Assembly (NCBI RefSeq): GCF_000956175.1
Contig: NZ_CP011070.1
Span: 1,296,147-1,360,146, forward strand
Origin: Nitrosopumilus adriaticus
GTDB lineage: Archaea > Thermoproteota > Nitrososphaeria > Nitrososphaerales > Nitrosopumilaceae
DNA: 64,000 bases
Reading direction: 5' to 3'
The position numbers and the translations under genes are program-made. Shown here one piece after another: positions 10,271 through 54,193 of the stretch. Each line of letters opens with the position of its first letter. Positions within the stretch are counted from its first letter, which is position 1. Below the pieces are notes generated by a model, which did no database searches, was not told the origin of the DNA, and saw only the letters and a list, made by a program, of their open reading frames with translations.

Positions 10271-10413
10271 TTGTTGTCTATCCTTTGTATTTTCTATTTA
10301 ATCCTTGATAGAAATAATGAATACACTCAATGAGTAATTTGTGCTCAATTTAAAAAATACATGATTTACGAGTCACGTTATTTTTAAGTAGGGCACAAAA
10401 AGCAGATCAACGC

Positions 10414-11196
10414 ATGGTATCAGGCAATCAAATCAGATTAAATCGAATTCTTCGAAAAGGAAGAATGTTATGTATCCCAATGGATCACGGTATTTCAAAT
10501 GGGCCAATTGAAGGTCTAGAAGATCCAGTATCTACAATTTACAAATGTGAGGGCCATGGTCTTACCAGTGTAATTATCAATAAAGGAATTCTCAAAGCAT
10601 TACCAAAGCCAACCAAAGTTGGAGTTTTAGTTCATTTCTCTAGTAGCACATCATTATCGTTATCACCTAACCGAAAAATGCTTACTGGAACAGTAAAGGA
10701 AGCAGTTGCGATGGGTGCTGATGGAGTTTCATTGCACATCAATATTGGAGGCAAGGAAGAGCCAGAGATGCTAGAACAATTAGGAATGACTGCAGACCAA
10801 TGTCACAAGTGGGGAATGCCACTTTTAGCAATGATGTATCCAAGAGGGGAAAATATCAAAGATCCACATGAACCTGAAATTGTAGGTCATGTTGCAAGAA
10901 TTGGGGCAGAATGTGGCGCAGACATTGTAAAGACACTATACACTGGCGACATTGATTCATTTGCAAAAATCGTAAAAAGTACTCCAGTACCAATTGTAAT
11001 TGCAGGTGGACCCAAAGCAAAAACAGATTTAGATATTCTTCAAATGACAGAAGATGCCATGACTGCAGGAGCTAAAGGAGTTACATATGGTAGAAACATC
11101 TTTGCACATAAAACACCTGAAAAAATAGTTGAGGCATTAGCTGATATAATTTTTAGAAAAGTAACTGCAAAGGAAGCAATGAAGAAAATTGAGTAA
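10414..11196 (+). CDS. 2-amino-3,7-dideoxy-D-threo-hept-6-ulosonate synthase (archaeal AroA')
   Basis: 260 residues, class I aldolase TIM barrel. N-terminal PMDHGISNGP carries the catalytic Asp, and ADIVKTLYTGD has the Schiff-base Lys. This makes the first committed compound of the archaeal DAHP-independent route to 3-dehydroquinate from aspartate semialdehyde and a deoxy-sugar phosphate. First gene of the aromatic operon; TTATTTTTAA is centred ~29 bases before the ATG. The next gene overlaps by eight bases, so translation is probably coupled. Confidence 0.93.
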   Translation: MVSGNQIRLNRILRKGRMLCIPMDHGISNGPIEGLEDPVSTIYKCEGHGLTSVIINKGILKALPKPTKVGVLVHFSSSTSLSLSPNRKMLTGTVKEAVAMGADGVSLHINIGGKEEPEMLEQLGMTADQCHKWGMPLLAMMYPRGENIKDPHEPEIVGHVARIGAECGADIVKTLYTGDIDSFAKIVKSTPVPIVIAGGPKAKTDLDILQMTEDAMTAGAKGVTYGRNIFAHKTPEKIVEALADIIFRKVTAKEAMKKIE

Positions 11197-14637: not shown

Positions 14638-15895
14638 AGTTGAAAAGTCAAAGATTTCAGGGCAAATAATTTGCCCTGCAAACAAGAGCTATACTCATAG
14701 GGCCATATTTCTGGCATCACTTGCTGGAAAAAATAGTGAAGTTAAAAATTTCTTACACTCTGCAGACACAACTGCAACAATAGAAGCTTGTAAAAAATTT
14801 GGTGCAGAAATGATAATTGAGAATTCATCAATAATTGTAAAAAATCCCATAAAATTTGACAAAATCGTACCTGAAATCAATACCGAAAATTCAGGAACAA
14901 CCATTAGAATTGCATCAGGGATTGCCAGTTTATTTTCTGAAGAGATAACATTAACGGGAGATTCCAGTTTACAAAAAAGACCAATGCAACCGTTACTTGA
15001 TGCATTATCAAGTATTGGTGCACAATGCAATTCAACTGATGGGAAACCACCAATCAAAATCAAAGGAAGGATTTCTGGAGGAGATGTCAAAATTCCAGGA
15101 AATTTTTCTAGTCAATTTATTTCAGCGTTGTTGATTAGTGCGCCACTTACAGAAAAAGGAATTAATCTTACAATTGAGGGGAACTTGGTATCAAAACCAT
15201 ATCTTGATGCAACAATAGCTACAATGAGAAAGTTTGGAGTGTCAGTTCAGACATTAATTCCATACAAAAGATATAACATCACACCACAAAGATACAAAGA
15301 GGCAACATTTACTGTTCCAATTGATTTTTCTAGTCTCGCATTACTTCTCTCATCAACTGTTCTTAATGGTGATGAAATTACAATTAAGGGCAACATAGGA
15401 AATTTACCACATGGTGATGAAGTTTTCATAGATATCCTAGAACAATTAGGAGTTACTGTTATGATCAATGAGGAAGAAATCAAAATCAAATCACCTGAAA
15501 AACTAACTGGTGGAAAATTTGATTTGAGTAATTCACCGGATCTTTTACCACCCCTTGCAATTTTAGCTTTAAAATCATCATCACCAATTGAAATAGTAAA
15601 TGTAAAACATGCAAGACTAAAAGAAACAGACAGGATTGCAATAATTGCAAGAGAACTTGTTAAATTAGGAATCAATATTCAAGAAAAAGAAGACGGCTTA
15701 ATCTTAGAGTCTTCAGAAAATTTGAAAGGAGCTGAACTTAATTCCGAAAATGATCATAGATTATTCATGTCTTTTTGTATTGCTGGAATGTACATAGGAG
15801 ATTGCACAGTATCAGATCCAGAATCAGTAAATGTTTCATTTCCAAATTTCATAGAAGAGATGAATCGTATTGGCGGAAAAATTCAAGTGGACTGA
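14627..15895 (+). CDS. aroA: 3-phosphoshikimate 1-carboxyvinyltransferase (EPSP synthase)
   Basis: 422 residues, typical length. The N-terminus has PANKSYTHRAIFLASLA (PEP/shikimate-3-P binding Lys-Ser-x-x-x-Arg), then the NSGTTIRI motif and the C-terminal KETDRIAIIARELVKLG. Overlaps the end of aroK by 11 bases. Last gene of this forward run before the small RNA gene. Confidence 0.95.
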   Translation: MKCKVEKSKISGQIICPANKSYTHRAIFLASLAGKNSEVKNFLHSADTTATIEACKKFGAEMIIENSSIIVKNPIKFDKIVPEINTENSGTTIRIASGIASLFSEEITLTGDSSLQKRPMQPLLDALSSIGAQCNSTDGKPPIKIKGRISGGDVKIPGNFSSQFISALLISAPLTEKGINLTIEGNLVSKPYLDATIATMRKFGVSVQTLIPYKRYNITPQRYKEATFTVPIDFSSLALLLSSTVLNGDEITIKGNIGNLPHGDEVFIDILEQLGVTVMINEEEIKIKSPEKLTGGKFDLSNSPDLLPPLAILALKSSSPIEIVNVKHARLKETDRIAIIARELVKLGINIQEKEDGLILESSENLKGAELNSENDHRLFMSFCIAGMYIGDCTVSDPESVNVSFPNFIEEMNRIGGKIQVD

Positions 15896-15901
15896 AAAAA
15901 A

Positions 15902-15910
15902 TTATTTAAA
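15902..15910 (+). promoter_or_regulatory. TATA box of the orphan RNA gene
   Basis: TTATTTAAA is centred at ~15906. Transcription would start at ~15933, exactly at the first base of the GC-rich structured segment. Confidence 0.5.
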
Positions 15911-15933
15911 AAAATCAAGTAAAAGGGGTAAAA

Positions 15934-16018
15934 GGCGCGACCCTGTATAGGGTGAAAAGCATTCTCCTCACCCACAACGCTTTTGCGTAGATAACATGTC
16001 TTTTTCGCAGGGCCGCGC
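15934..16018 (+). ncRNA. Orphan structured small RNA (~85 nt)
   Basis: A GC-rich island in very AT-rich surroundings. Bases 15935-15945 pair with 16008-16018 (10 pairs and one A.C mismatch) as a closing stem. Inside are a 6-bp hairpin (15950-15955 with 15968-15973) and a perfect 4-bp hairpin with a TTTT loop (15977-15988), giving a multi-branched fold. It has its own TATA box 27 bases upstream and a T run after 16041. It is not a tRNA, 5S, SRP or RNase P RNA by sequence or size. Strand is inferred from the promoter. Confidence 0.6.
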
Positions 16019-16063
16019 AAATTATGGTTTAGAATTTACACGTTTTTCCATATAATGTGTATG

Positions 16064-16118
16064 TAATTATTATATTTAAGATTATATTATAATTATTTCA
16101 ATAAAAATATAATAATTA
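16064..16118. repeat. Perfect 14-bp inverted repeat, AT-only
   Basis: TAATTATTATATTT at 16064-16077 is the exact reverse complement of 16105-16118, with a 27-base spacer. It lies between the forward RNA gene and the reverse histidine-kinase gene, so a bidirectional terminator is possible. The rest of 16019-16204 is AT-rich with no gene that I can see. Confidence 0.45.
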
Positions 16119-16204: not shown

Positions 16205-16516
16205 TTAGACTGAATCTTCTGAGTCAGGATTCTTTGGAAGAGTTATGGTAAATATTGTTGGTGGAGAAGTTACAGAAATGATACCATTGTGACCTCTGAC
16301 AATAGAGGCGACACTCGCCAAGCCAAGTCCTGTTCCTTGTTGTTTTGTGGTGAATAGTGGTTCAAAGATATGTTCTTTCATATCACTAGGAATTCCTTTT
16401 CCAGAATCTTGAATAGAAATCATAATTTCATTTGCATGTTCTTCACAGTTTATTTTTATCTCACCTTTTCCATCAATGGCTTGAATTCCATTAATAATTA
16501 GATTAGTAAGAGCCAC
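16205..16516 (-). CDS. Histidine kinase, C-terminal ATPase fragment
   Basis: Encodes the HATPase_c part of a sensor kinase: NLIINGIQAIDG (N box), QDSGKGIP (G1 box), FTTKQQGTGLGL (F/G2 boxes). The first Met is internal. The frame is open and coding-like upstream to ~16634 (QISVIIADALDSINLPNNIY), directly continuing the phospho-acceptor domain of the gene at 16618-18036. So this is the second half of one gene split by a one-base frame break. As it stands this half has no start of its own. Confidence 0.85.
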   Translation of the reverse strand: MALTNLIINGIQAIDGKGEIKINCEEHANEIMISIQDSGKGIPSDMKEHIFEPLFTTKQQGTGLGLASVASIVRGHNGIISVTSPPTIFTITLPKNPDSEDSV

Positions 16517-16617
16517 TGCAAGACGTTTTTTATCACAATAAAATTCAAAGTCATTTTTTGAAATATCAAAATAGATGTTATTTGGAAGATTGATTGAATC
16601 TAATGCATCAGCAATAA

Positions 16618-18036
16618 TTACAGAAATTTGTGTTTTTCAATTTGCATAGGTTCATTTCTAATGAAACCTAAAACATCTTCAATTTGATGAGATATCCTAC
16701 TTATTGCACGTTCTACTCTATCAAAATGTTTTTGATCGATTTTTGTGTCTTTAGACATTAATTTTAGATTTTCAAGAGATACTTGAATGATTGATAGAGG
16801 GTTTCGTATATCATGCGCCAATCTTGCAGATAGTTCACCTATAGTAACAAGTTTTTCTTGTTTTAGTATTTTCTCCTGAAGTTTTATTCGTGGTGTAATG
16901 TCAGTTCGGATTTCAATATAATGATGTATTGTATTTCCATCATAAATAACAGGAGTGATCACGGTTTTACCCCAATGAAAAGTTCCATCTTTTGATTTAT
17001 TTTTTATTTCACCACTCCAAGTCTTTCCGGATTTGAGAGTATCCCACATATCTTCATAGAATGAAAAAGTATGATATCCTGATTGGACAATTTTGTGGGT
17101 CTTACCAACCAATTCATCTCTAGAATATTGTGAAATTTGACAATATTGCTCGTTAACATAAGTAATTACACCATTAGGATCTGTGATTGTTACACTTGCA
17201 GAGTTATCCAATGCCTTTCTGAAATTTTCAAGTTCTTGTACGGAGGATTTTACAGTATTACCCATTTCAATGATTTTATTTCTTAGAGCATCAAACTCAT
17301 TTTTAGAATGAGTGGAAACGATATCGTATTGCTTATCGGAAATTTGAGAAGTTAATTGTTTCAAAGACTCTACTTGTTTAGAAATATCAAATGAGATTAT
17401 TATAACAATGATTATAGATACTAATCCTAAAAGAATATTTAAGATCAAATTAGAATTTGTTATTTGAGCAGAGATGTTATTAATAGAATTTTGCTCTAGT
17501 TCTATTCCAGTATTTTCCATAGAATAATTTTGTTCTAATATATTTTGAAAGTCATCATAAATTACATCCAAATCTTGAATTAATAATATTACAGTCTCAC
17601 TATCTCCAGAGTCCACATTACTAATAATAGAATCAGACGTTAAGACAAACTCAGCAAAGATATTTTCATAGTGATCAACATAATTATTCATCATATTTTT
17701 CATCCTATCATCAGCTAAATCATCACCCAAGGAATTTTTTGCAAACGACAAATTTTCATATTCACGGACATGATTAAGAAAAGTAGTTTGTGATTCCAAA
17801 TAGGCATTTTTTGTTTTCTCATTAGGAAAAATAATGTAATAATGTACATAATGGTTAGCAGTAATGAAAGACTTTTCAATATCTCCCAGAAGCGTTAATG
17901 CAGGAATACTCATAGAATTGTGGTATTCAGCAACAGAGTTAATCTCAGAAGATAAATAACTATTGTAAGACTGACCTGCAACAAAAATTCCAATTATCAG
18001 TATTAGTCCTAGAGCTAATTTTGTGCGAATCTTCAA
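16618..18036 (-). CDS. Membrane histidine kinase, sensor-HAMP-PAS-HisKA part
   Basis: 472 residues before an early stop. Layout: TM1 (~7-25), an extracellular helical sensor domain (~30-190, 4-helix-bundle-like), TM2 (~193-215), a HAMP-like linker, a PAS domain (~270-385; TITDPNGVITYVNEQY, ending at HYIEIRTDIT) and HisKA with the phospho-acceptor His in ARLAHDIRNPL. The frame ends a few residues after FIRNEPMQIEK, where the ATPase domain should begin. Adding one A to the A5 run at 16633-16637 restores a 610-residue kinase. It lies opposite the aromatic genes on either side. Confidence 0.85.
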   Translation of the reverse strand: MKIRTKLALGLILIIGIFVAGQSYNSYLSSEINSVAEYHNSMSIPALTLLGDIEKSFITANHYVHYYIIFPNEKTKNAYLESQTTFLNHVREYENLSFAKNSLGDDLADDRMKNMMNNYVDHYENIFAEFVLTSDSIISNVDSGDSETVILLIQDLDVIYDDFQNILEQNYSMENTGIELEQNSINNISAQITNSNLILNILLGLVSIIIVIIISFDISKQVESLKQLTSQISDKQYDIVSTHSKNEFDALRNKIIEMGNTVKSSVQELENFRKALDNSASVTITDPNGVITYVNEQYCQISQYSRDELVGKTHKIVQSGYHTFSFYEDMWDTLKSGKTWSGEIKNKSKDGTFHWGKTVITPVIYDGNTIHHYIEIRTDITPRIKLQEKILKQEKLVTIGELSARLAHDIRNPLSIIQVSLENLKLMSKDTKIDQKHFDRVERAISRISHQIEDVLGFIRNEPMQIEKHKFL

Positions 18037-37498: not shown

Positions 37499-37625
37499 CC
37501 CAAGCTAGCTCAGCCTGGTAGAGCTTCCGGCTGTAGTTGTTGGCTTTAGATGGCTGACCGAATAACAGCATATCAGGCATACAGAAACCGGGTTGTCGAA
37601 GGTTCAATTCCTTCGCTTGGGACCA
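37499..37625 (+). tRNA. tRNA-Tyr (GUA) with a 50-base intron
   Basis: Mature acceptor is CCCAAGC/GCTTGGG with discriminator A and encoded CCA (37623-37625). The C1-G72 pair is the archaeal Tyr identity element. The anticodon stem TCCGG/CCGGG closes a loop CTGTA-G/A, with the canonical 37/38 intron at 37537-37586. Spliced length is 74 bases before CCA. The exon junctions must be excised by the archaeal endonuclease; intron ends carry a possible one-base ambiguity. Confidence 0.92.
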
Positions 37626-54092: not shown

Positions 54093-54193
54093 TGCAGAGG
54101 GTGGGATTTGAACCCACGAACTCCTGAGAGAAGGGATTTCCTATTATGAAGATCTTGAGTCCCTCTCGGTTGACCGGGCTTCGATACCTCTGC
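54093..54193 (-). tRNA. tRNA-Leu (CAA) with a 16-base intron
   Basis: Acceptor GCAGAGG/CCTCTGC, T arm GTGGG-TTCAAAT-CCCAC, a long variable arm (class II) and anticodon stem AGGGA/TCCCT. The loop is CTCAA-G then a 16-base insert (54138-54153), then A. Anticodon CAA reads Leu UUG. Spliced tRNA is ~85 bases; CCA not encoded. Intron ends may shift by one base. Confidence 0.9.

Follow-up and report, generated by a model that had tools for sequence, protein, structure and literature searches.

Among known kinds of molecule, the RNA described here comes nearest to archaeal dual-function RNAs that carry a leaderless small open reading frame (ORF), such as Methanosarcina mazei sRNA154, a proposed dual-function RNA whose leaderless small ORF encodes 20 amino acids (PMC11456600). 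On the reading favored below, both would be archaeal trans-acting small RNAs with a leaderless small ORF at the 5′ end; the sRNA154 peptide, however, is reported to be highly conserved in Methanosarcina (PMC11456600), whereas that of the present family is not, and by description the present family differs further in its fixed nine codons, its folded ORF and its several paralogues. Spot 42, which is cited in the same paper as a bacterial dual-function RNA with a 15-amino-acid protein (PMC11456600), is likewise a regulatory RNA in which a very short ORF is embedded. It differs in being bacterial and in having a peptide that is the functional product. Bacterial dual-function RNAs of the Spot 42 type are not leaderless. 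In trpL-type attenuators, a short translated ORF stands immediately before the stems, which are followed by a U-run. The same order of ORF, stems and U-run is found here, and ribosome position could similarly choose the fold, but the present family lacks a downstream gene in cis and its copies are dispersed at unrelated loci. The ribosome-associated small RNAs of Haloferax volcanii, suggested to be stress regulators, offer a parallel as archaeal small RNAs with ribosome occupancy, although the abstract of that study describes most of them as lacking coding potential and gives no covarying family alike (PMC12482152). A Red Sea start-site study reported an abundant archaeal RNA, Tan1, in Euryarchaeota. 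The family was not described in any paper found by searching the open-access literature (most subscription journals and preprints lie outside it) for small RNAs of Thaumarchaeota, conserved RNA structure and leaderless or dual-function RNAs of archaea, and no regulatory RNA described for Nitrosopumilaceae was found in the open literature searched. The RNA family appears to be undescribed so far.

The window, a stretch of 64,000 nucleotides from Nitrosopumilus adriaticus, contains a GC-rich island at 15935–16018 (ca. 45% GC, compared with 25–33% in the surrounding DNA) between aroA (plus strand, ending at 15895) and a minus-strand histidine kinase gene. A preliminary description of this block was right about its GC-rich composition, its long closing stem (15935–15945 with 16008–16018) and its two inner hairpins, and the structure and conservation of the block stand. 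It had the RNA on the wrong strand with the wrong promoter and made it too short; the conserved unit runs approximately 33 nt past the block, up to 16051. All 200 dinucleotide shuffles fold worse than the block on both strands (z=−5.6 for plus and −4.7 for minus), so single-sequence folding energy carries no strand information. A BLAST search with 15890–16040 against 250 genomes of the same family revealed close homologues in about 75 genomes, and 90 homologous loci were fetched and aligned. The closing stem is interrupted by an A⋅C break on the plus strand but forms an unbroken 11 bp with G⋅U on the minus strand. In 81 of 84 homologues the more favorable fold is that of the minus strand, and RNAalifold energies are −54.4 kcal/mol (minus) versus −44.4 kcal/mol (plus). 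Among 55 sequences, 98.4% of stem cells are paired on the minus strand versus 87.3% on the plus strand, because 185 cells that are G⋅U on minus are A⋅C on plus, with 5 in the opposite sense. A TATA-like motif at the site of the proposed plus-strand TATA box occurs in 36 of 85 homologues, and the segment around it is otherwise poorly conserved and T-rich on the minus strand, as expected for an archaeal 3′ end. We therefore rejected the plus-strand reading, together with its TATA box, given the better minus fold and the lack of conservation of the plus motif. The locus almost certainly holds a real minus-strand RNA gene spanning 16051 to about 15930 (ca. 120 nt), whose transcript is predicted from the DNA alone.

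Leaderless mRNAs are common in archaea, and 28–32 nt between TATA box and start codon is the leaderless spacing. Leaderless initiation in a TACK archaeon has been the subject of structural work (PMC11698992). TATA-like motifs of the other genes in the window cluster 28–32 nt upstream of their start codons, with 13 of 33 scored hits lying in those five positions. On the minus strand, a TATA box (TTAAATA, 16073–16079) is shared by 83 of 85 homologues of the window's own kind, which we call type 1, and its first T lies 28 nt upstream of the ATG of a micro-ORF; across the whole family, TATA-to-start spacing is 28–30 nt in 159 of 175 members. The transcript is predicted to be leaderless because this distance matches the leaderless spacing. 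The upstream-region alignment also features a conserved minus-strand element around −10 (ACATACACA, consensus ACRTAYA, 16056–16064) with a possible promoter-proximal role. An element around −10 reading ACRTAYA or CTATAAT is common to both types of RNA described below, and may mark a strong promoter of all copies.

The minus-strand RNA comprises four helices. P0 pairs 16033–16037, inside the micro-ORF, with 16019–16023, which overlaps the stop codon; 98% of its cells are paired and 3 of its 5 pairs show two-sided changes. The closing helix P1 joins GCGCGGCCCUG (16008–16018) to CAGGGUCGCGC (15935–15945) through 11 pairs, 6 of them with two-sided changes and 99.2% of cells paired. Hairpin P3 is formed by ACGC (15985–15988) and GCGU (15977–15980), with two-sided changes in 4 of 4 pairs, and hairpin P2 by GGGUGAGGAG (15964–15973) and CUUUUCACCC (15950–15959), with such changes in 4 of 10 pairs and a strongly conserved tip, GAGAAUGCUU. 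The junction UAUA (15946–15949) is invariant in the alignment, and the U-rich 3′ end (15915–15933, with TTTT at 15930–15933 and a T-run at 15915–15921) is the probable termination region. In a first alignment of 46 sequences from Nitrosopumilus and near relatives, which was not fitted to a covariance model, 13 of 30 pairs show two-sided changes, compared with 3.6 for shuffles and no more than 4 for slid controls. Relatedness is lost on shuffling but preserved in the slid controls, which fail. A second alignment, which adds Nitrosotalea through a covariance model and, being model-fitted, leans towards that model, gave two-sided changes in 17 of 30 pairs (120 such cells versus 34 in shuffles) and support for all four helices. 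The compensatory changes for which the preliminary description had proposed a covariance search were found, on the minus strand. Judged from these alignments, the minus-strand secondary structure is conserved, covarying and under selection. Two further features were considered and dropped: a second ORF downstream (ATG in an ACATGTT segment), which is out of frame between relatives, and Shine–Dalgarno mimicry by GGUGAGGAG in P2, because this segment is paired and is altered in Nitrosotalea.

A covariance model including Nitrosotalea (R2) gave weak, repeated matches in genomes without a type 1 RNA. These matches are a second type (type 2) of approximately 135 nt, with the same promoter spacing and the same nine-codon frame (for example MRKDVNPID, MSKVAISID and MRKDANPNK, each followed by a stop). 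The type 2 outer stem, GCGYRRYCC/GGGYYRCGCC, is as in type 1, and encloses an inner helix, GCAGAAC/GUUCUGC, and a GAGAGGNAAUCUCUC hairpin; this structure covaries too, with two-sided changes in 9 of 22 pairs. A model built from type 2 alone (R3), with no type 1 sequence included, recovers the window RNA with 42.5 bits (E=1.7e-6), which indicates that types 1 and 2 are homologous. Together with this match, the leaderless frame, the P1 stem and the U-rich end make us highly confident that the window RNA belongs to the family modeled by R1–R3, as its type 1 paralogue.

A search with R3 of 400 genomes of the class matched 202, all from Nitrosopumilaceae; as counted from the order of the genome list, these represent 202 of 221 Nitrosopumilaceae genomes and 0 of 179 others, and the 19 non-matching genomes are mostly incomplete. 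A phylum-wide sample gave matches in 44 of 44 Nitrosopumilaceae genomes and 0 of 256 others. Genera g7, g9, g10 and g22 were without a match in the 400-genome class search, and when genera were tested individually, the family was present in 13 of 13. Its restriction to Nitrosopumilaceae and its conserved TATA box support the original idea of a lineage-specific gene for a small RNA under a promoter of its own. The gene is no orphan, as had been thought: genomes carry 1–6 copies, and that of the window carries three (C1:41287–41425, C1:1058322–1058460 and, at C1:1312072–1312200, the window RNA). Named carriers of type 1 include Nitrosopumilus, Nitrosarchaeum, Nitrosomaritimum and Nitrosotalea, with one type 1 copy per genome at loci that are unrelated between different genera. 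Decayed or truncated copies at L042 (G111), L043 (G164), L284 (G117, C1:696132) and L066 (G036), which variously show a lost stop, a frameshift with broken stems, AT-rich drift or deletion of most of the RNA, suggest that individual copies can be lost. Genome G246 contains a tandem pair of type 2 RNAs about 300 bp apart (C184:10089–10216 and 10398–10524; L274 and L283), one with a nine-codon and one with an eight-codon frame. A type 1 motif is also found on a contig labeled as candidate division KSB1 bacterium (L155, JAJDAE010000327.1), which most likely reflects archaeal contamination of the KSB1 bin.

Rfam 15, with its tRNA, RNase P, SRP, guide RNA and riboswitch families, returned nothing at the gathering threshold and nothing credible at E values up to 10 at the locus, and gave no match at seven loci holding other members, which accords with the early remark that the block resembles no common RNA class. 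The accompanying suggestion of a guide RNA found no backing: the Rfam guide families had no match at the locus or at the seven other loci, and inspection of the type 1 and type 2 alignments by eye revealed no conserved C/D boxes or H/ACA features. A tRNA search at the window block gave no match. Elsewhere in the window, the Rfam tRNA model identifies two tRNA genes that ARAGORN does not, at 37499–37622 (plus) and 54093–54193 (minus), whose lengths of 124 and 101 nt suggest introns.

The micro-ORF at the 5′ end of the RNA, absent from the preliminary description, occupies 16022–16051 on the minus strand and is predicted to be leaderless. Read from 16051, it consists of ATG, eight codons and TAA (ATG GAA AAA CGT GTA AAT TCT AAA CCA TAA) and encodes MEKRVNSKP. 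Start and stop are both retained, with constant spacing, in 83 of the 85 homologues of type 1, while the codons between them vary. An eight- or nine-codon frame is found in 149 of 152 distinct members placed by alignment alone, and in 171 of 175 when 23 further members, partly picked for having such a frame, are included. Of the members, 96% have a stop 27 nt downstream of the A of the ATG (TAA 107, TAG 16, TGA 45); the next best offset has 50% stops, and these are TAA only. The type 1 stop codon has changed about 10 times on the aroA tree, with a non-stop only in the decayed-looking L042 and L043. In type 2, on a rough tree built from the RNA body, the second and third positions of the stop change at least 14 and at least 12 times, respectively, and TGG is never seen. 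The start codon alternates only between ATG and GTG; L022, L036 and L037 have lost it, and each has an in-frame ATG one codon later. Differences in frame length are of exactly 3 nt, one codon (L218, L219 and L283), and the frame is missing in L042, L043, L207 and L284, some of which are clearly decayed. Exchange among stop codons, replacement of lost starts in frame and length steps of 3 nt are marks of a translated frame, and we consider that the ORF is probably translated. By these comparisons the micro-ORF is under selection as a reading frame.

These observations bear on the possibility of a plain trans-acting structured RNA, whose 5′ AUG and URR would be kept as a binding sequence without translation. 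Start and stop could in principle persist as RUG and URR, the strong covariation and the invariant unpaired GCGAAAAA, UAUA and hairpin tip GAGAAUGCUU are in line with such an RNA, and archaeal small RNAs can occupy ribosomes without coding evidence (PMC12482152). It would not account for the use of three stop codons but never TGG, the in-frame replacement of lost starts and the restriction of length steps to 3 nt, and we regard it as unlikely, if a serious competitor.

If the frame is translated, its nine-residue peptide could be the functional product of a dual-function small RNA. The frame is conserved, peptides are similar in some lineages (MRKDANSGK in Nitrosotalea type 1 and MRKDANPNK in type 2), and the leaderless 20-amino-acid ORF of M. 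mazei sRNA154 offers an archaeal precedent (PMC11456600). Of the features of dual-function RNAs, the family has a free-standing gene with its own promoter (conserved TATA box, independent loci) and a small ORF selected as a frame, but not a conserved peptide. Minimum changes at codon positions 1, 2 and 3 of codons 2–9 number 39, 74 and 33 in type 1 and 87, 107 and 103 in type 2, so neither type shows the third-position excess that was sought, and very unlike peptides (MSLVTKLND, VIVESLQMA and MQKDVKSTA) occur at the same place in the family. For type 2 the third-position test is somewhat weakened because folding of the ORF constrains its codons: all 54 distinct type 2 ORFs fold more stably than shuffled versions of themselves (mean −6.7 versus −2.2 kcal/mol), the whole ORF being folded into a hairpin. 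The type 1 ORF alone folds weakly (44 of 64 below shuffles); here the region of the stop codon pairs with the second half of the ORF. Folding of the type 2 ORF does not explain the stop switching. A functional peptide is improbable on balance; across the alignments frame length is conserved and the peptide is not, and it is the act of translation that seems to matter.

The order of micro-ORF, stem and U-run resembles an attenuator, and in Nitrosopumilus and its neighbors type 1 lies between convergent aroA and, mostly, divergent aroC, which would suit a cis element, whether a leader-peptide attenuator, a riboswitch or a terminator common to convergent genes. An attenuator or riboswitch calls for a conserved co-directional downstream gene; the window has no same-strand gene downstream of the RNA, aroA being convergent, and in the loci examined the neighbors differ and the downstream gene is convergent. 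Few homologues adjoin a histidine kinase gene, which is an addition in the window, and the type 1 copy of Nitrosotalea is located downstream of a sirtuin-like gene. Of the two other copies in the window's genome, one adjoins a short-chain dehydrogenase gene and a hypothetical gene and the other a purP-like gene, as named by reading translations rather than by family search. Cis regulation of aroA or the histidine kinase was rejected because most homologues have no such kinase next to them and both neighbors are missing in Nitrosotalea. The supposed tie to aromatic genes falls with these unrelated neighbors, and a cis element of any of the above kinds is very unlikely. The differing neighborhoods are most simply read as those of a trans-acting RNA. 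The window's histidine kinase itself is present in two minus-strand frames, 16618–18036 and a C-terminal part ending at 16205 (16205–18036 overall), apparently split by a frameshift near 16620, whereas the frame is long and uninterrupted in the relative L003; the split gene is either a pseudogene or a sequencing error.

A dispersed mobile or repeat element, to which the 1–6 copies per genome and the tandem pair in G246 might point, is highly improbable, given the orthologous type 1 positions across genera, the single type 1 copy per genome, the promoter and structure kept under selection and the lack of any phage or viral match, on which a phage or viral origin was rejected as well.

The best explanation as a whole, which we advance with a little less than even confidence, is that the window RNA is a type 1 paralogue whose micro-ORF translation gates the RNA body. 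The RNA would start at the A of the ATG, where a ribosome would initiate, read eight or nine codons and stop at the foot of P1; the stop codon lies approximately 3–5 nt before this helix. Any ribosome engaged on the ORF would melt P0, or the ORF hairpin in type 2, and at termination it would sit over the 5′ arm of P1; the fold is therefore expected to depend on translation of the RNA. Because the frame has a conserved length, start and stop but no conserved peptide, ribosome passage is taken as its function. Translation of the micro-ORF could then gate how the RNA body folds, or how long it survives, and the body would act in trans as an effector that reports on or regulates translational state. 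The gating step is proposed from geometry, and a translation-gated trans-acting RNA is accordingly put forward as a tentative model. The more specific idea that these RNAs are translation-sensing switches, whose conserved output would be the movement of a single ribosome along the nine-codon frame, melting the ORF hairpin and opening up the P1 domain, is more doubtful still.

A frame whose length is conserved but whose product is not represents an unusual kind of coding constraint. Nitrosopumilaceae, which drive nitrification, rank among the most abundant archaea of the ocean. The family occurs in nearly every member of this group, often in multiple copies, and is a testable target in transcriptomes; the covariance models R1–R3 could be used to annotate it at once. 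If they are indeed translation-sensing switches, these ammonia-oxidizing archaea would read their translation capacity through several paralogous trans-acting small RNAs.
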